IMG/VR virus record: IMGVR_UViG_3300036045_000514
Coordinates: 1-46,517 of that record
DNA from: a virus
Direction: 5' to 3' (one strand)
Length of the DNA: 46,517 bases
The notes under the pieces were generated by a model. The model made no database searches. It was not told where the DNA came from and saw nothing but the letters and a program-made list of their open reading frames with translations. The translations under genes were made by a program, and so were the position numbers. Shown here in pieces: positions 20,547-39,463 of this stretch; position 1 is the first letter of the stretch; each line of letters begins with the position of its first letter.

Positions 20547-21203
20547 CTAGAATCGAATGATGGGCTTGCTGCCTAGCACTTGTTCGGTGCGCTGTTTGTC
20601 GGTGGGTGATGAATGCTGATTCGACGGGCTGCCGGGCGCGCCCGCCTTGCCATACTGCGCTGGGCGCGCTTCCTTATGCCTGGCGATGAGCGTGTCAACT
20701 TTCTTGCTGTCTACCGCGCCGTCTTCGCCAATGCACGCCTCTAGTAGGTCCTTGGCATACGCGCCTGCCCACAGTGCGACATCTTCGGGATACGCCGCGC
20801 CCGCTTTGGACGCCGCTGCCTGAACGCTGTTATTCAAGCGCTCCCAGCGTCGCTCCTGCTCGACCGCTTGTAGGCGCGCCTCGTGTTCCTTCGCCTTACG
20901 CTCCGCCGCCTCAATAAGCGCTTTCGCCTTTTCGACTTCGCTCATTTCCGCTTCTCTGCGTTTGCGCGCGTCTTCAACCGCCGCCTTAAGTTCGTCGGGC
21001 TTCTCAAAGCCCAACTCTTTCAGCAGCGCGTTGATTGCGGACTTCCGCGCTTCCGTGCGAGCGTTCCCCACGAGTGCATTGACCTGATCTTGCGTTAGCG
21101 CGCCAGATGCACCCGCGTTTTCGCCAGCGGTAAGGCTATTGGTTTGCGCGCCGTCTCCGTTTCCCTCTACGGGTTCGGGGTCTAGCCATTTACGAATCAG
21201 CAT
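20547..21203 (-). CDS. Capsid scaffold protein (218 aa)
   Basis: Start at 21203 (GGAGAG eight bases before) is preferred to a much longer frame that would run through the intergenic stem-loop and the previous gene. The product is acidic/helical with LTQDQVNALVGNARTEARKSAINALLKELGF, then a long coiled coil (EVEKAKALIEAAERKAKEHEARLQAVEQER), as in GP20-type scaffold proteins. The C-terminus is basic (RHKEARPAQYGK, KPIIRF) and may bind the coat protein. Position between minor head and capsid genes agrees. Confidence 0.85.
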   Translation of the reverse strand: MLIRKWLDPEPVEGNGDGAQTNSLTAGENAGASGALTQDQVNALVGNARTEARKSAINALLKELGFEKPDELKAAVEDARKRREAEMSEVEKAKALIEAAERKAKEHEARLQAVEQERRWERLNNSVQAAASKAGAAYPEDVALWAGAYAKDLLEACIGEDGAVDSKKVDTLIARHKEARPAQYGKAGAPGSPSNQHSSPTDKQRTEQVLGSKPIIRF

Positions 21204-21255
21204 TCTTTTCTCTCCACTCCACAACACCCGCGCTTGACGGCGCGCGGTAAACCTT

Positions 21256-21297
21256 TGCCTGCACGGGACTTGCACCCATGTTTCCACTTGGCAGGCT
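21256..21297 (-). other. Nested stem structure, tRNA acceptor/T-arm-like
   Basis: On the minus strand GCCTGC pairs with GCAGGC (21296-21291 with 21262-21257), enclosing CATGGG and CCCGTG arms around a seven-base loop TGCAAGT. This imitates a tRNA T-arm (GGGTGCAAGTCCC), although position 55 of the loop is G rather than T, and no D-arm or anticodon arm exists. It lies between the minor head and scaffold genes. It could be a tRNA relic, a processing stem or a translation-tuning structure. Confidence 0.45.
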
Positions 21298-22036
21298 ATC
21301 CAAAAACAGCGACGCCCCCACGTATGCGCAGCGGCGACCATTCCGCCGCGCGCCGTTCGCAATCTACGCAATGCTCTGCACTGCCCAAGCGCCAGTAGCA
21401 ATCCCAGCCGCCCGGCACGCGCTGAATATCCCAGCGACACTTACAGCGCACCCTACAGCGCGTAGAACCGTCTCCAGGATAGGCAGGTAGCGTTAGCCCC
21501 ACGCGCCCCGTGATCGCGCGCCATGCAGTTGCACGCGCGGCTTCTGCATACAGTGTGGCGCGCTGTATCAGCGCATTCAGTGCCTGCGCAATACCGCCAG
21601 CCAGCCCCGTTGCCAGCCCCAACAGCAGCGCACGGACGGGCAGCGGCGTCCCAGTTTTGTCTTCCGTCGCCGCCGCCTGCTGTTCCCGCACCCGAAGCTC
21701 GTTTGCCCAGTTGGTCATGTACGCAGACTGTTCATCGATGGCATTTGCAAGGTCTTCCACGTCTTGCGCGTCCATTTCGTCCGGCGCGGCGTGCGCTTGC
21801 AAATAGACTGCCGTGTGCAGCGCAGCCAACGCTGCCAACATGCCCGTCAGCCAATCTTCAAGCGTGATACGCTCGTTCAAGTAGTCTTCGGATAATTTGC
21901 GCGCGCGGCTGACAAAGCGATTTTGAAGGCGACCAATTGCGTCATCCTCAAAGGGCGGCGGATCGCTGGCAAATCCCGTGAGCCGTCCCTCCGCTTCTGT
22001 GAACAGCGCTTGCAAGTCGTTAAACATCAGCGTCAT
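21296..22036 (-). CDS. Minor head protein / head morphogenesis, SPP1 gp7-like (246 aa)
   Basis: It follows the portal gene with a 17-base overlap. The C-terminal part shows the Cys/Trp-rich pattern of phage head morphogenesis proteins: GDGSTRCRVRCKCRWDI, then DCYWRLGSAEHCVDCERRAAEWSPL, which should bind a metal. The N-terminal 160 residues are helical, with a helix that looks hydrophobic (ALLLGLATGLAGGIAQALNAL). It probably enters the head and helps DNA ejection or assembly. Confidence 0.8.
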   Translation of the reverse strand: MTLMFNDLQALFTEAEGRLTGFASDPPPFEDDAIGRLQNRFVSRARKLSEDYLNERITLEDWLTGMLAALAALHTAVYLQAHAAPDEMDAQDVEDLANAIDEQSAYMTNWANELRVREQQAAATEDKTGTPLPVRALLLGLATGLAGGIAQALNALIQRATLYAEAARATAWRAITGRVGLTLPAYPGDGSTRCRVRCKCRWDIQRVPGGWDCYWRLGSAEHCVDCERRAAEWSPLRIRGGVAVFG

Positions 22037-25980: not shown

Positions 25981-26903
25981 ACGAGACCGCCATTAATTGG
26001 ACAGAACTGACATGGAATCCTGTTTCGGGATGCGAGAAGGTCAGCGAAGGGTGCAAGCACTGCTACGCGCTCACGCTGGCAGAGCGCTATCGCGGAGGGG
26101 CTGCCTTCCCAAATGGCTTTGACTTGACCATTCGCCCTCACAAACTGCAAGAGCCTTACAAGCTCAAGCAGCCAAGCATCATCTTCGTGAACTCGATGAG
26201 CGATTTGTTTTGGGACAAAATCCCCGAAACTTATCGCGATCAGATTATCGAAGTCATGCGCAACACGCCCCAACACGTCTATCAGGTGTTGACAAAGCGC
26301 CCTGAAGCGATGCTCGAATACAGCAAGCGCAAACCGTTGCCCCCGAACTTTTGGGCTGGCACGACCATCGAAGCGGGGCGCACTGCCTATCGTGCAGACA
26401 TCATCCGGCGCATCGATGTTCCAATTCACTTTGTCAGCGCAGAACCACTGATTGGCGTGTGGGAGCGCCCCGACCTGGAAAACATCCAATGGATGATTAC
26501 GGGCGGCGAAAGCGGTATACACCTACAAGACCCCGAAACGTGTATGCGGCGCGGATTGGTTATGAAGGTGTTCGGCAAGTGGACACCGCGCCCAGATCGC
26601 AAGGATTGGGTGCGTGAAATTCGCGATGCATGTATTGCGAAAGGCACGCTGTTCTGGCATAAGCAATGGGGCGGACCCACGCCCCATAGCGCCGGGCGCG
26701 ATGTTGACGGACGAACATGGGATGAGCGCCCTATGCCAAGTGTGGCGATAGTCCCATTAGCGACAGTCGCTCCAGAATTGCAGCCACATAGCCCGGCTCA
26801 ATCTCCAATCCACAGCACTGGCTACGGAGGCGCTCGCAAACAACAAATGTTGTCCCCGAACCCGAAAACGGGTCAACTACCACTGTTTCCCGAAATGGCT
26901 TAA
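25977..26903 (+). CDS. Phage Gp37/Gp68 family (DUF5131) protein (308 aa)
   Basis: The N-terminus INWTELTWNPVSGCEKVSEGCKHCYA carries the three conserved Cys residues of the DUF5131/Gp37/Gp68 family, whose members are related to radical-SAM-like or metal-binding proteins of unknown role. Further family blocks are FVNSMSDLFWDKIP, VLTKRPEAM, GTTIE and FVSAEPLIG. GRDVDGRTWDERP is the usual end of the family. The last roughly 55 residues run past this point, antisense to the methyltransferase gene at 26731-27864, and lack family similarity. The longer end may be a lost stop codon or a drifted tail. Confidence 0.85.
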   Translation: MNETAINWTELTWNPVSGCEKVSEGCKHCYALTLAERYRGGAAFPNGFDLTIRPHKLQEPYKLKQPSIIFVNSMSDLFWDKIPETYRDQIIEVMRNTPQHVYQVLTKRPEAMLEYSKRKPLPPNFWAGTTIEAGRTAYRADIIRRIDVPIHFVSAEPLIGVWERPDLENIQWMITGGESGIHLQDPETCMRRGLVMKVFGKWTPRPDRKDWVREIRDACIAKGTLFWHKQWGGPTPHSAGRDVDGRTWDERPMPSVAIVPLATVAPELQPHSPAQSPIHSTGYGGARKQQMLSPNPKTGQLPLFPEMA

Positions 26904-27864
26904 TCAGCTTTTCAACCATGTCGATTGGCTTAGAAGTGTGGTGGTACACATCACCATACTTCCGCGTTGCACCCTCGACATTGTAAATGACTGACGAAAA
27001 GCCAATGCCGAAATTGAGTGGATAATCAGCAACCCAATAGACGACTTTGTGTTCGTAAAACAGCTTGTGTTTATTTCCCATCTGCGGGATAGAGGACAAT
27101 CCCAAAAGAACCCCCTCATGAAAAGAGGGCAGCCCACAAACTACATCTTTGATTTGATGCCCACCAGTGATGTATACCGCTGCCCGCGTGTCAAAAATTG
27201 CGCGCACTTTAGCAATCAGGGCGTCCTGGAAAAACGGATCGCAAAAAAACACATACTCATCACGTAGCCCCAAGCGATTTACATCGTCGGCGTTTGTGCT
27301 ATCTCCGCAAAGCAGGCGGTGTTCCCCGCCGTGCAAACTCGGAATAAGCCACAACTGACCGCGCTCGGTTTTCCATTTCTCTTGCAGTTCTTCGGCTTGG
27401 TCAACCTGCGCAGCGGGCGCATCCTTTGGCGTCTCGTCGGTATACAGCCCAACGCTTTCGCTTAACTCTGCAATCGCCGCCTGCAATGCTGCATCATCCG
27501 TGTTCACCTCTCGCAATAAAGCATCAAGATTATCGCGATCATATTCAGCCATGTATGTAATGAAGTCAAACGTCGCCAGCGCCAGCGCTTCCTCGTCCTC
27601 GCTGAGATCAACCTCCACGAACGGCACAGGGGCGTTGTCTCTCGCTAGTGCCTGCCAGACGCGCTCGTGACCGTCAATCATGTACCCCGTGCGGACATTC
27701 ACCACGACGGGCGCTATCCAGCCGAGAGTGTTCAGGCTGCCCTCTACTGCATCCCGCTGTTTCTGCGGGTGTTTGCGCGGGTTGCGCGGATTGGCGGTAA
27801 ATTGATCGGCGGGCTGCACGCCATAGCGCACAATGCGGTTCTGCCACTGCGAGGCATTTTCCAT
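26731..27864 (-). CDS. ParB-like / DNA methyltransferase fusion (377 aa)
   Basis: Start at 27864 has AAGGA five bases upstream. The N-terminal part (about 20-130) is ParB-like (NPRKHPQKQRDAVEGSLNTLGWIAPVVV, YMIDGHERVWQAL), as in phage ParB-methyltransferase proteins. The C-terminal part is an N4/N6 methyltransferase: HRLLCGDSTNADDV, YHHTSKPIDMVEKLI and VVVDPFSGSGTTFVV (SAM site, at the end as in beta-class order). The catalytic DPPY motif appears as DPFF (CDPFFQDAL), a change of its third residue. Activity is therefore uncertain. The gene overlaps the convergent gene by 173 bases. Confidence 0.85.
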   Translation of the reverse strand: MENASQWQNRIVRYGVQPADQFTANPRNPRKHPQKQRDAVEGSLNTLGWIAPVVVNVRTGYMIDGHERVWQALARDNAPVPFVEVDLSEDEEALALATFDFITYMAEYDRDNLDALLREVNTDDAALQAAIAELSESVGLYTDETPKDAPAAQVDQAEELQEKWKTERGQLWLIPSLHGGEHRLLCGDSTNADDVNRLGLRDEYVFFCDPFFQDALIAKVRAIFDTRAAVYITGGHQIKDVVCGLPSFHEGVLLGLSSIPQMGNKHKLFYEHKVVYWVADYPLNFGIGFSSVIYNVEGATRKYGDVYHHTSKPIDMVEKLIKPFRETVVVDPFSGSGTTFVVCERLRSQCCGLEIEPGYVAAILERLSLMGLSPHLA

Positions 27865-27908
27865 AAGAGTCCTTGTAAACAAAAATGCGAAAGTTTAAGT
27901 TCATGTAA

Positions 27909-30311: not shown

Positions 30312-30716
30312 CTATATCCCAAATATCTTATTGCTGCCGTTGTCAAATGTGATCGTGACGTTGCCGGAGTTTGGGATAAATGGCTGGGGCGTAATGTTAT
30401 CCACATACGCAATTAGGCGCGCAGTACCATCGCTACCCGTGTGCTGATAGACGATCACCGCCTCGACCGTCGCACCACTGACCCCGTTGATCGTGATGTC
30501 AGCCGCGTCAAAAACGCCGCTCGTCGTGGTTTTGCTTTGCAGCGCAGTAGACACCGCAATCCGCGCGCCAACTGCCACATCGCTTAGAAACTGATGTGAA
30601 GCGCTGTAGGTGTACGCACCCGTATCGACCAGGACGCAGCGAATATCATTGCTTTGAAGCGCAATTTCACCTTTCAAAAACGATTCTTTTGCCAGCGGAT
30701 AAAGCAAACTTGCCAT
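30312..30716 (-). CDS. Hypothetical virion-type protein (134 aa)
   Basis: First gene of the second structural block. The sequence starts MASLLYPLAKESFLKGEIALQSND and continues with VLVDTGAYTYSASHQFLSDVAVGARIA and a beta-rich rest ending in FIPNSGNVTITFDNGSNKIFGI. This pattern is frequent in hypothetical phage proteins encoded near tail fibres. Transcription probably starts at an extended -10 promoter around 30894 and passes through a structured leader. Confidence 0.7.
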   Translation of the reverse strand: MASLLYPLAKESFLKGEIALQSNDIRCVLVDTGAYTYSASHQFLSDVAVGARIAVSTALQSKTTTSGVFDAADITINGVSGATVEAVIVYQHTGSDGTARLIAYVDNITPQPFIPNSGNVTITFDNGSNKIFGI

Positions 30717-33238: not shown

Positions 33239-33631
33239 CTAGAACGGCATTTCTGCCATGTCGTTTGAACCATTTGTGTCGAACGCGCCCGCGCCCTCTT
33301 GCGCGCGCCCGCCGATAAACTTGACCTCGCGCGCGGTCATGTCCAATGATGCTTGCGCGCCGCCATCATTGCCCGTGTACGCGCGTGCTTCCACCGTGCC
33401 GATGACCATCACCTGCGCGCCTTTCTTGATGTACTGGCTACAGACCTCAGCAAGCTCGCGCCACGCCGCTACCCGTACCCATGTTGTTTTCTCTTGGCGT
33501 GTTTCCCCGCGTCCGGTAACGGTGTTGACTGCCACGCTGAAATTGCACACTGGCGCGCCGCTTTGCAGATATTTCATTTCCGGCGCGCCGCCGACATTGC
33601 CGGCGATGATCAATTGCATGTAGCCACTCAT
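33239..33631 (-). CDS. ssb: Single-stranded DNA-binding protein
   Basis: The OB-fold signature is clear: MQLIIAGNVGGAPEMKYLQSGAPVCNFSVAVN, TTWVRVAAWRELAEVCSQYIKKGAQVMVIGTVEARAY and SLDMTAREVKFIGG. The C-terminus ends in an acidic tip (NDMAEMPF), the usual docking tail for partner proteins. ATG at 33631 is preferred over an upstream in-frame start that would overlap the previous gene. It protects single strands in replication with the primase and helicase encoded upstream in this operon. Confidence 0.92.
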   Translation of the reverse strand: MSGYMQLIIAGNVGGAPEMKYLQSGAPVCNFSVAVNTVTGRGETRQEKTTWVRVAAWRELAEVCSQYIKKGAQVMVIGTVEARAYTGNDGGAQASLDMTAREVKFIGGRAQEGAGAFDTNGSNDMAEMPF

Positions 33632-33650
33632 AACGCTTTTAGCTCCCCCT

Positions 33651-33974
33651 CTACCCATCGTTCAATATACTCGTGTGTTTATCGTCTCGCAACAGTTGCC
33701 AGTTGCCAGTGTCATCTTCCTGCCATTGCAGTGGGCTGTTGACAATCTCATCCGTCATCGCGACGACGATGCGAATGGGGTCGTTTGCGGTTTGGATTGC
33801 AGCCCGTTCCTGTTGCTCCTGAATGTGCCGACGTTCTCCCATGATGTCAGCGTACACAGCGGCTTTTGCGCGCTCAAGTGCGTCATCGCCCACGAACACG
33901 CCGCGCGCGTCCCTAAAGTTATTGTCCTCATCCATGAAACAACAGACTCGCATAACAATCCACGCATCCATCAT
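33651..33974 (-). CDS. Hypothetical protein (107 aa)
   Basis: The start at 33974 follows an AAGGAAG site; a second ATG comes next and a third at codon 14. The product is acidic, with a helix (DDALERAKAAVYADIMGERRHIQEQQERA) and a C-terminus with VVAMTDEIVNSPLQWQEDDTGNWQLLRDD. No family is recognised. A 110-base gap precedes it (33975-34084), where I see no gene; an AT-rich stretch might be a weak leftward promoter. Confidence 0.6.
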   Translation of the reverse strand: MMDAWIVMRVCCFMDEDNNFRDARGVFVGDDALERAKAAVYADIMGERRHIQEQQERAAIQTANDPIRIVVAMTDEIVNSPLQWQEDDTGNWQLLRDDKHTSILNDG

Positions 33975-34084: not shown

Positions 34085-34993
34085 TTAGCCGAACATTTCC
34101 ATCTGGCGCAACGCCGTTTCGCGCGGGCTGATATACACCGTCTCGGTGCGCGCCTGCATTCGCCGCGCCGCGCCGCGCCCGACGATACCCGTGCTTCGCG
34201 TTCTGCCCGCCACATGGCAAGCGGTCTTCCATTGCACTTTTTGCCAGCCCGCCTCAGCAAGCGGCGTGTAGACGGCGTGGTCGTAACACGACAGAACCGC
34301 CACGCCACGTATCTCCAGAAGCACACTTACAAGACGCGCGTGATAGGCGTCGTCAATTTCATGTGCGTATTCACCCCCAGCGCGCGTATCTACGGAATAC
34401 GGTGGGTCAATGTAGAACAGGGTCTGCGGGTCATCAAATGTCTGGATAAAGTCCAGCGCGTCGCGGTTCATGATTTGCACGCGCTGGAGACGTTCGTGAA
34501 TGGCTGGCAGCATATCCAGCGCACTTATCCACCTTGTGCAACTTTCTGCCATCCCGCGAGTTGACGCAGTGCGCGCCAAACCAATTGACGCACCAAAACG
34601 CCCGCCGAAACTTTGGCGCGCCACAACGTACCAGCGCCACACGCGCTCATGGCGCTCCGTCTGGGTGTGCCAATCGCGGCGGCACTCTTGATAGAGTTGC
34701 TCGGAATAAGGCAGCGTTGCGACCACGCGATAGAAACGCTCGAACGCCGCGTCATCGCGCAAGGTGGCAAAGAAATCATACAGCCCGCCGTCGATGTCGT
34801 TATGCGCCTCGACCGACACGGGCGCTTTTGCCATCAGGACAGACGCCCCGCCGCCAAACGGCTCGGCGTAGTGTTTGTGCGCGATGGCGTTCAGGATAGG
34901 TAGCAACTTGGCGGTCATATGCCCCTTGCCGCCGAACCAGCGTATCGGGCTGTGCAAGCGGCGCATGGTAGGTGCGTTTGAGGTGGTCGTCAT
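34085..34993 (-). CDS. dam: DNA adenine methyltransferase, D12 class (Dam-like)
   Basis: Motifs in order: RWFGGKGHMTAKLLPIL (SAM-binding start), HYAEPFGGGASVLM (motif I), HNDIDGGLYDFF and FYIDPPYSVDTR with the catalytic DPPY. The length of 302 residues is normal. The recognition region (about 95-170) includes WRWYVVARQSFGGRFG. It overlaps the membrane protein gene upstream by four bases. It should methylate N6 of adenine in a short site (GATC in many homologues), probably for protection against host restriction. The site here is unknown. Confidence 0.92.
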   Translation of the reverse strand: MTTTSNAPTMRRLHSPIRWFGGKGHMTAKLLPILNAIAHKHYAEPFGGGASVLMAKAPVSVEAHNDIDGGLYDFFATLRDDAAFERFYRVVATLPYSEQLYQECRRDWHTQTERHERVWRWYVVARQSFGGRFGASIGLARTASTRGMAESCTRWISALDMLPAIHERLQRVQIMNRDALDFIQTFDDPQTLFYIDPPYSVDTRAGGEYAHEIDDAYHARLVSVLLEIRGVAVLSCYDHAVYTPLAEAGWQKVQWKTACHVAGRTRSTGIVGRGAARRMQARTETVYISPRETALRQMEMFG

Positions 34994-36344: not shown

Positions 36345-36883
36345 GGCTGCACCGCCTCGAATGTCAATACCCATGCGTCATAACGCTCTGGCGGACGGTC
36401 ATTCAGATAGTCAATGACACTTTGGCGATCTGCAACTTCCCAGCCGCGCCCGCGCCATTGCGTAAACATCATATAGTGACCGTGCCATGCCTCAAATTTT
36501 CGCGACGGATCGTGTATATTGACCCACACCTTCAGAAATTCCATTTGATCCTCAAACCCCTCGCTGCGCGCATCTGCACGACTAATCATGCGCACGTCCT
36601 CACGACGGATGTCTAGCAGGCGAATGCGACCGACTGCTTTCATGCCTCGTCCGGGTTGTACAGAATACGTGTTCCCAACACGGTAAATGGTGCGCCACTT
36701 GCCACGCACATCATCAAAGCGTGTGACCGCCTTAACGCCCATTGGATAGGAAATCATTTCGCACGGGACGGTGTCCCCACCGTCCGCTTCTGGCAGCGCC
36801 AGCCGCCGCGTCTGCATTTTCAGGTCGCCAGTGTGCGGCGATGGCTCGAATATCCATTCGTGTGTGTGAGCGAATATCATCAT
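36341..36883 (-). CDS. ASCH/PUA-like domain protein (180 aa)
   Basis: The order of motifs matches phage ASCH-like proteins: KMQTRRLALPE (the conserved TRR entry), YRVGNTYSVQPGRGMKAVGRIRLLDIRREDVRMISRADARSEGFEDQMEFLKVWVNIHD, where the Gly-Arg-Ile and Ile-Ser-x-x-Asp-Ala-x-x-Glu-Gly-Phe pattern is typical. The C-terminus has an aromatic WVLTFEAVQP end. Such domains bind RNA or modified nucleotides. The start at 36883 overlaps the TGA (36882-36880) that ends the reconstructed methyltransferase. Confidence 0.8.
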   Translation of the reverse strand: MMIFAHTHEWIFEPSPHTGDLKMQTRRLALPEADGGDTVPCEMISYPMGVKAVTRFDDVRGKWRTIYRVGNTYSVQPGRGMKAVGRIRLLDIRREDVRMISRADARSEGFEDQMEFLKVWVNIHDPSRKFEAWHGHYMMFTQWRGRGWEVADRQSVIDYLNDRPPERYDAWVLTFEAVQP

Positions 36884-37905
36884 TCGTCCTTCCTGCCATT
36901 GCTGGCAATATTCCGCCCGTGCGGAAACTCTAGCCGCTGAAGCAACGCCGCCGCCGGAATCGCCGCCTGTTGAGGCACGACGCCGTTACCAAGTGCGTGA
37001 ATGCGCGCCTTTCGCTCCTGCGTATCGTCTCCGGCAAGAGTACGCGGCGGTTCGTCCTAGCGCTGGTATTCAGCACGTGGAAATCGATGCTGTAGAGCGA
37101 AGTCCATCCCGACGGCAATCCCATCAGGAGTTCGACCCATTCCGGGTTCAGCAGTCCGTAATGCAGATCGTTTAATGGTGGCGACTTGCGATTGCCCCAA
37201 CACGCATAGCCGCGTCGGTACATTTGCGCCGTCGGCGTCGGCAGCAGTTGCGCCACCTGCGACAGGCGCATTAAAGATGTTTTCCCCTCTGCATACTTGT
37301 GGCGATACGTCCCCGACTTTGTTTTCACGGAACTCAGAGAAGGCTTGCGCCCTGCAATGTCCGATGCTGTCGTCGTAGGCAGTATTGGACGCGGTGATAA
37401 AGACGCGCCTGCGGATGTGCGGCGCGCCCACGCTGGCGGCGCTGACAATTCCCCATTCGATATGCTGCCAGCGCGTGGCAAGCTGGTTGATGATGCGTTC
37501 AAAGGTGCGACCTCCGTCAATTGTTTGCAGCGCGGGTACGTTTTCCAGTAACACGCTGCGCGGTTGTAGCCAGTCCATTATTTCAAAAAACTTTGGAAAC
37601 AAATTGCGCTCATCCGCTTCCCCGCGCTGGCTGCCAGTGATCGAAAACGGCTGGCACGGCAACCCTGCGCACACAATGTCTACAGGCGCAAGCATCCCGC
37701 GCGCAATGTGGTTCATGTTCATGTGGTACACGCGCGGATGTCCGAATACATCACCGCGTGCGCGCAAGATAGCCGCGCAGTATGGCTCGTAATCCAGTTG
37801 CCACGCCACGCGCGCCGGAATACCGAGCCTGTACGCCGCCAGCAGAATACCAAGCTCCAGCCCGCCATAGCCGCTGCACAGCGAGCCAACAAGCAACGCG
37901 GGCAT
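36880..37905 (-). pseudogene. C5-cytosine DNA methyltransferase, reading frame disrupted
   Basis: From ATG 37905 the frame has SLCSGYGGLELG (motif I), GLPCQPFS (catalytic Cys), LLENVPA and HIRRRVFI. It then runs to TAG at 37057-37059. The next conserved blocks (LPTTTASD, LPTPTAQMY, LNPEWVELLMGLPSGWT at about 37152-37100) are in the +1 frame, while the last one (HALGNGVVPQQ, about 36999-36967) is back in the first frame, past the TAG, and ends with TGA at 36880-36882, which overlaps the next ATG. Two compensating shifts near 37385 and between 37100 and 37003 would restore a protein of about 340 residues. It may be a decayed gene, a sequence error or a recoded gene. Confidence 0.75.
36911..36926. 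repeat. TTCCG palindrome, copy 4
   Basis: TTCCGCCCGTGCGGAA: perfect six-base arms with a four-base centre. It lies at the 3' end of the disrupted methyltransferase, just upstream of the ASCH gene start. Confidence 0.7.
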
Positions 37906-37988
37906 CACCAGCACTCCCCGCTGCGCACACTGCGGCGCAGCCAGTCAAGCGCGTCATTCACGACAATTGTGTCCAGAGCAATCATCAT
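37905..37988 (-). CDS. Coupled microprotein (27 aa)
   Basis: ATG at 37988 overlaps the helicase stop, and its TGA (37907-37905) overlaps the methyltransferase ATG. The peptide is MMIALDTIVVNDALDWL plus a basic, Trp-ended C-terminus. Such double coupling in an operon full of ATGA links supports translation, either as a real microprotein or as a coupling peptide. Confidence 0.5.
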   Translation of the reverse strand: MMIALDTIVVNDALDWLRRSVRSGECW

Positions 37989-39463
37989 TGCGCCTCCAGT
38001 GCGTCCAGCATCGTATCCAACATCTCATCGTGCGCGGGCGTGGCGGTGCTGACAGTCATCACGTCAGGAAACTTGACGGTCTTACTGGGCAGGATTAAGC
38101 CACTGCCGTCATGGTACATAACGGTATTCCATCCCGTGCTGGCGGTATCGCGTCCGCGCTGGATTCGCACCTGCGAACGGTCGTTATAGAATTTGTCATC
38201 CATTTCAACCACGCCCCGTGTTTCAAGCAACGTGTCCACATCCGCTGCCAGCGCGCCGCCACCCTTGACCCCGCTTGCACCCATGTTGCCATTGCGAATA
38301 GATGTTTCATTCATTTGTGCCAGCAGCAAGACGGAAAGCGGTTGATCGCCCGACTGTCGCACCAATTCGCGTAACGCGCCCGACACAACCGTCTGCTGCA
38401 AATAGGGCTGATTTTGCAGCGCACGTTCAATCAGCAGCATATGATCGACCATGTACAGCCAGCCGCCGTACAAGTGTTGATCGCGCTTGATGCATTGCAC
38501 CACCGTTGAAATGCTGCCGCCGTGCAGACCGCCTTCGCGCGTCATGTCATAAAGCCGGATACGATCTTGCAGCGCCCGCCACTTGGACAGCCCCACCTCA
38601 ATCGCCTCGACTTTTTCCTTGCGCCATGTGCGATAGGATGCACGCGCATTCAATAGCTGCTTGGCGCTCATCCAGTAGAGTGGGTTGTTGGGCGTGTAGT
38701 CCCGCCGCGTGTAAAACAGGTGGTCAACCGCCAGCATCACCGTCATGATCGCGCCCATCTTCAGGCGCGAATTTTCGAGTGAGAGAATAGCCACGCTTTC
38801 GCCAGCACGAGCCGCGTTGAGTAGGATGTTGTACCCAAGCGTTGACTTGCGTGATTTATACGCGCCCGCCAGCCCGTAGAACGCGCCCTTTTCAATCCCG
38901 CCTGTCTCGGCGTCCAACCAATCGATCCCCGTTGATAGCAGTTTTTCCGGCGTTCCTTCCAGCCAATCGGTGATGTCTCCGGCTACCGCGTCGGCAGTTT
39001 CGCCCGCTGTTGCTGCGCTTTCGGTTGAGATATTCGAGACCACAGACCGCATGGCGTCCCCAACCGCCGCGCCTTGCTTGATCGCAACCGCGCCGCGCTC
39101 CAAGACGGTAATCGCCCGCGCCTTTGCCCCATATTCCTTGCATAGGCGGATCAGCGATGCGTAATCCATTCGGCGCATGTCATCAAACAGCACCGACAGG
39201 CTGTAATACCACGCCTGGTTCAGGTTGCTCATCCGCGTCATCACTGCGGGCGCGTTCACTTCGCGGCGCTCGCGATACAGATCAATGATCACTGCGTACA
39301 GGGTTGAGCATTGTCCGGGCGGCATATCGTCGGGCGTCAAACCATGCTCATAATACGTCTGGCGAAAGTAAGCATCGCGCTCGTCCACGTACCGTTCCAT
39401 CACCAGCGCCGACAGGATGTCCTCTGCGGCTGCCGTCCATGCCTCCATCGAATAGCCGCTCAT
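37985..39463 (-). CDS. DnaB-like replicative helicase (492 aa)
   Basis: The N-terminal 150 residues are helical, as in DnaB (AAEDILSALVMERYVDERDAYF, MTRMSNLNQAWYYSLSVLFDDM). The RecA-like core starts with STGIDWLDAETGGIEKGAFYGLAGAYKSRKSTLGYNILL: the P-loop here is GAYKSRKS, with Arg in place of the usual second Gly. Later blocks are VAILSLENS, GGWLYMVDHMLLIE (Walker B-like) and SVLLLAQMNET with a following GGGALAADVDTLLE. ATG at 39463 overlaps the upstream stop. It unwinds DNA with the primase and initiator encoded just before it. Confidence 0.85.
   Translation of the reverse strand: MSGYSMEAWTAAAEDILSALVMERYVDERDAYFRQTYYEHGLTPDDMPPGQCSTLYAVIIDLYRERREVNAPAVMTRMSNLNQAWYYSLSVLFDDMRRMDYASLIRLCKEYGAKARAITVLERGAVAIKQGAAVGDAMRSVVSNISTESAATAGETADAVAGDITDWLEGTPEKLLSTGIDWLDAETGGIEKGAFYGLAGAYKSRKSTLGYNILLNAARAGESVAILSLENSRLKMGAIMTVMLAVDHLFYTRRDYTPNNPLYWMSAKQLLNARASYRTWRKEKVEAIEVGLSKWRALQDRIRLYDMTREGGLHGGSISTVVQCIKRDQHLYGGWLYMVDHMLLIERALQNQPYLQQTVVSGALRELVRQSGDQPLSVLLLAQMNETSIRNGNMGASGVKGGGALAADVDTLLETRGVVEMDDKFYNDRSQVRIQRGRDTASTGWNTVMYHDGSGLILPSKTVKFPDVMTVSTATPAHDEMLDTMLDALEAQ

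Follow-up and report, generated by a model that had tools for sequence, protein, structure and literature searches.

A nested gene pair, probably for a two-subunit C5-cytosine methyltransferase, with a TAG codon interrupting the large-subunit frame in a viral genome

The window analysed here, the whole 46,517-nucleotide stretch of the IMG/VR virus record IMGVR_UViG_3300036045_000514, carries on its minus strand a methyltransferase locus which we read, with a probability of roughly 0.88, as a nested overlapping gene pair for a two-subunit C5-cytosine methyltransferase, with a layout like that of M.EcoHK31I and with the gene of the large subunit (alpha) cut by one TAG. Nested arrangements of this kind are widespread and have been known before; the oddity of the window is the stop near the end of alpha. 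Since a continuous alpha frame is missing, we class the locus as an interrupted variant and not as a complete member of the family. What appeared to be a frame-shifted or recoded gene is replaced by a testable case of sense-strand dual coding.

Results

The locus had been assigned to the C5 methyltransferase family in an initial annotation made from the letters alone, and profile searches upheld this assignment. Pfam PF00145 matched frame 0 with E = 8e-32, the match ending after motif VIII, and DNA-methyltransferase families of PHROGs were found on both frames, phrog_116/363 on frame 0 and phrog_1008 (E=3e-11) on frame +1. Under the standard code the alpha gene (37057..37905, minus strand, as are all features of the locus) carries motif I (SLCSGYGGLE), motif IV (PCQPFS, 37659), motif VI (ENV) and motif VIII (RRRVFI, 37413-37396) in frame 0, which is open over 37914..37057 and encodes 285 aa. 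The start codon ATG 37905 is preceded by GGGGAG 8 nt upstream, and GTG 37908 and GTG 37914 are alternative starts. The in-frame TAG that had been reported ahead of the last motif is present at 37057..37059, between the stretch of alpha overlapping motif IX of the small subunit (beta) and motif X, so that alpha is not continuous from motif I to motif X. Beyond it, the remainder of the alpha frame (36880..37056) reads EPPRTLAGDDTQERKARIHALGNGVVPQQ and holds motif X (HALGNGVVPQQ, with LGN from 36993) in the large-subunit frame, collinear with the corresponding region of three related loci (L034, L015 and L008). The stop codon that closes this frame, TGA 36882-36880, shares bases with the next ATG (36883-36881) in an ATGA junction, as had been noted. 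Scored against frame 0, the alpha profile gave 179 bits with the TAG read through and 163 bits up to the TAG, and the text after the TAG scored 19.7 bits, where recodings preserving the frame +1 protein averaged -1.6 (P = 0.002). A structure model of alpha, in which the TAG was read as a residue for the purpose of the fold only, matched the large domain of M.HhaI; residues from about 182 to 286 were unstructured, and the helices of motif X were confident. The inputs to the structure models left out, in each of two cases, a row from a phage-collection locus.

The open stretch of frame +1 extends from 37577 to 36930. Both frames are open over 37057..37577 by open-frame reading and by recoding test, giving an overlap of about 520 bases up to the TAG. 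Nested in alpha in this frame is a putative beta gene (36930..37502), recognised by phrog_1008 and by a beta profile that scored 94 bits in the window, in frame +1 only. It covers the variable, or target-recognition, region with the blocks LPTTTASD (37382-37359) and LPTPTAQ (37244-37224), followed by the motif IX block LNPEWVELLMGLPSGWT at 37101..37151; in the alpha frame the same bases read EPGMGRTPDGIAVGMD. Thus a candidate small subunit carries motif IX in a frame that differs from that of the large subunit and overlaps it. We propose that beta starts at TTG 37502, which is preceded at a distance of 7 nt by a Shine-Dalgarno-like GGAGGT (37510..37515), the chance of an equally good site there being 0.067. 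The beta frame of the window opens later than in any sampled relative. The model of beta was of low confidence, matched no solved structure and was too poor to show a fold. The alternation of motif blocks between frame 0, frame +1 and frame 0 described in the initial annotation was borne out and lies beyond chance by the recoding tests. A sharp switch of frame near 37385, which had also been supposed, was not seen, as frame +1 is open well upstream of that point.

Within the window, a held-out beta profile scored 70.2 bits on frame +1 between motifs VIII and IX, as compared with a mean of 3.2 in recodings that preserved alpha, and from motif VIII to the TAG frame +1 scored 72 bits, as compared with at most 31 in 2000 recodings. 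When the 214 codons up to the end of beta were recoded with alpha preserved, frame +1 acquired a mean of 4.0 stops and was open in 0.5% of cases. The alpha text between motif VIII and the TAG was no better than the shadow forced by beta (P 0.4-0.6), and the beta text before motif VIII was weakly above the shadow forced by alpha (P about 0.13). The alpha text was likewise no better than the beta shadow in two intact loci with a longer spacer between motifs IX and X (L008 and L053). Dual coding in the window therefore rests on homology, on the open frames and on the two ends, and not on the overlapped text. The shadow-level alpha text and the weak beta text before motif VIII, together with the late opening of beta, the long branch of alpha and the poor beta model, were counted as points against the nested reading. 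The alpha-like EPGMGRTPDG of frame 0 was tried as stand-alone proof of dual coding in the window and was rejected, being forced by beta motif IX. An alpha text of the form EPGxGRVADG, common in nested loci, is partly a frame shadow of the beta motif IX LNPxWVEWLMG and may for that reason be mistaken for a separate alpha motif.

Alignment scans with alpha and beta were then used to survey 160 viral loci and 80 bacterial-genome loci. Where both motifs could be placed, motif IX stood in frame +1 and motif X in frame 0, with alpha open throughout, in 76 loci of the viral collections and phages, while 37 loci were single-chain, with IX and X in the frame of motifs I-VIII, and 6 were split in the manner of M.AquI; motif IX was never found in +2 among the surveyed loci with IX and X placed. 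Of the bacterial-genome loci, 68/80 had an open reading frame with PCQ and motif X around a motif IX in +1. By a uniform criterion, at least 147 loci besides the window are nested and intact (79 viral contigs, 66 bacterial-genome contigs and 2 named phages), and 87 of these are distinct. All of these counts are lower bounds, the regex classes missing loci such as 31 without a detected N-terminal part of alpha. The regex class alone gave 'no IX' for loci L010-L015, which by inspection have a nested beta with a variant motif IX; these are the best-scoring relatives of the window alpha, nested and intact, with alpha continuing to motif X. Alpha also continues to motif X in the L034 group, which is collinear with the window across the IX-X spacer.

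Three phages illustrate the arrangement. The methyltransferase gene of Paenibacillus phage Shelly (gp55) encloses, in frame +1, that of gp56, annotated as 'g55 internal gene'; ORF29 of coliphage K1ind2 likewise contains ORF28 in frame +1; and podovirus ctjLE16 has the nested layout too, with just one gene annotated. Most phage records examined name one gene at the locus, and the specificity subunit therefore often goes unrecorded. The homologues carry the +1 blocks, in the +1 frame, rather than lacking them. Recoding, which had been offered as a possible cause of the frame alternation, is not supported, given a layout that is intact in the family and whose inner gene has been annotated in Shelly and K1ind2. 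Sequence error, offered likewise, is not supported for the frame alternation either in view of this intact layout, and is still plausible for the single TAG.

Constraint on both frames was assessed in the family by two tests. In the recoding test, synonymous codons of 54 distinct nested loci were permuted with one protein kept and the other frame watched. Frame +1 was open in all of them (54/54), as compared with 2.1 expected when alpha was preserved, and so was frame 0 (54/54), as compared with 0.3 expected when beta was preserved. In the profile test, which covered 47 loci with profiles trained without the tested cluster, the alpha text between motifs VIII and X exceeded the beta shadow in 45/47 loci, and the beta text exceeded the alpha shadow in 47/47 between motifs VIII and IX and in 34/47 before motif VIII. 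The alpha frame was open from VIII to X in 47/47 loci against 3.8 expected, which argues for unbroken translation of alpha across the region of beta, something that a nested gene requires and a frameshifting one does not. Shine-Dalgarno sequences of at least 5 bases were found near the opening of the beta frame in 45/85 loci, against 18.7 (sd 3.9) expected.

A stop between motifs IX and X was found only in the window and in one other locus among about 155 comparable loci. This second interrupted alpha (L240:3035-3100), in a metagenome-assembled Acidobacteria genome, belongs to a nested pair and has a TGA just before motif X. Since both motif X and the reading frame downstream of the TAG are preserved in the window, the stop should be recent, an error, or read through. 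Most likely it arose by a recent nonsense change or reflects a sequence error, and alpha as read would be without motif X; either of these is a likelier origin of the TAG than recoding. Searches with two exact DNA patterns, taken from around the TAG and motif IX, yielded no near-identical contig in which the TAG could be checked.

The alternative that survives best, although it is an unlikely one, is a nested pair whose TAG is decoded as an amino acid, through suppression, readthrough or a changed code, giving a full-length alpha with motif X. It differs from our preferred reading solely in what the TAG does, and the preservation of motif X and of the frame up to the ATGA junction speaks in its favour. 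Against it, the TAG codon ends several well-supported genes, those for a single-stranded DNA-binding protein (SSB, 33239-33658, with a second stop two codons past its TAG), a head scaffold (20547-21440) and a phrog_644 protein (30312-30716), no tRNA gene, suppressors included, was found in the window by ARAGORN, and the comparable stop of the Acidobacteria locus is a TGA. TAG does end genes of this phage, and genome-wide recoding of TAG, which is unlikely because several genes end in TAG and the window has no tRNA gene, was rejected as a candidate on the same grounds. It is improbable, too, that the TAG is a real leaky stop, in which case a short alpha without motif X would be made along with a rare full-length alpha, and readthrough would set the amount of active alpha/beta methyltransferase. 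Five of 13 TAG-ended genes of the window (20547, 30312, 32853, 16115 and 44079) have an in-frame ATG within four codons, which is probably the one-in-three chance of close-packed genes.

The initial annotation had also considered two compensating indels, and a single-chain C5-methyltransferase gene carrying two such indels, or two assembly errors, would give the same order of blocks. Single-chain relatives do exist, namely the 37 loci above, and a tree of the N-terminal part of alpha places the window, on a long branch and with its position unsure, on the side with many single-chain loci. Yet L010-L015, which adjoin the window in this tree, are nested; the window and the nested loci have exactly the same frame relation, +1 and then 0, and in at least 147 of these loci the layout is intact and both frames are open; and the open stretch of frame +1 begins at 37577, well ahead of the supposed switch, while just 0.5% of recodings leave that frame open over the overlap. 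We therefore regard the indels as quite unlikely to have caused the frame alternation.

Still harder to sustain is a split in the manner of M.AquI, in which alpha would consist of motifs I-VIII alone and beta would be meant for the TRD, IX and X. Such splits do occur among the relatives (L002, L054, L065, L082, L104 and L150), but in all six alpha stops before IX, and IX and X lie together in frame +1, whereas the alpha of the window continues for 92 nt beyond the point where motif IX begins, and its motif X is in frame 0. The position of these six loci amid nested and fused relatives suggests that the nested, fused and split forms have changed into one another repeatedly. In Mycobacterium phage Jarcob, gp69/gp70 (L006:1201-2371) correspond to the single gene 76 of phage Rita (L004:1201-2370) with a frame change in mid-gene, which is either a real split or a sequence error.

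Programmed frameshifting, by +1 after motif VIII and by -1 before motif X to give one chain, would account for conserved blocks in the order 0, +1, 0, but it is the least credible of the alternatives, as inspection by eye revealed no slippery heptamer at either site, a shifting ribosome has no need of the alpha frame kept open between VIII and X throughout the family, and ribosome-binding sites are enriched at the beta starts.

Discussion

According to the nested reading, the product of frame 0 would be the AdoMet-binding and catalytic domain with motifs I-VIII, holding the catalytic cysteine and, in intact relatives, ending in motif X. Within alpha, a separate ribosome-binding site would start the translation of beta in frame +1, and beta would supply motif IX together with the variable (target-recognition) region. 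In intact members, the part of alpha that overlaps beta would form a linker of little structure leading to motif X. The two chains are predicted to assemble into one methyltransferase modifying the phage DNA. The usual role of phage methyltransferases is the protection of phage DNA from host restriction, and modification by this enzyme would presumably counter it as well.

The closest parallel is M.EcoHK31I, whose small-subunit gene reportedly lies within the large-subunit gene in a different frame. The likeness drawn here is one of motif layout: in both, the large-subunit frame has motifs I-VIII and X and the small subunit has IX, whereas the alpha of the window is cut by the TAG before X. 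PMC3404938, which cites Lee, Kam and Shaw 1995, describes M.EcoHK31I (YGGCCR) as a two-polypeptide C5-methyltransferase with motifs I-VIII and X in the large subunit and IX in the small one. The same source places the predicted TRD of M.EcoHK31I in the large subunit, in contrast to the constrained text of the variable region in beta here. The pairs gp55/gp56 of Shelly and ORF29/ORF28 of K1ind2 share with the window an internal gene in +1 and the same motif order; unlike that of the window, their alpha is uninterrupted, and the beta of the window has a shorter open N-terminal part. M.AquI is a two-chain C5-methyltransferase as well, with motifs IX and X in its small subunit (PMC3404938), whereas motif X of the window is in the alpha frame and not together with IX in one small-subunit frame. 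With M.HhaI and other single-chain enzymes of PF00145 the window shares the large-domain fold of alpha; in contrast to these, its motifs I-X do not stand in one open frame, and the alpha model is without a structured small (TRD) domain, this region being taken up by the overlap with beta.

The survey suggests that nested alpha/beta C5-methyltransferases are common in phages and bacteria. A literature search, with subscription papers outside its scope, found no paper describing nested or overlapping methyltransferase genes in phages. The loci assembled here are material on the mutual constraint between two overlapping frames, and the window adds to the nested family one interrupted member.

No close relative of the window phage was found by blastn in the phage collection, nor in scans of viral contigs with protein patterns of alpha, the frame +1 reading frame and the helicase. 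For the DnaB-like helicase that adjoins the methyltransferase locus (37985-39463), tblastn against the phage collection and a protein-pattern scan of viral contigs likewise found no relative, which indicates that the window phage is isolated in these collections. Two further methyltransferases are predicted in the window, one of the phrog_56 type (34085-34993) and one in which a ParB-like domain is joined to a methyltransferase (26731-27882).
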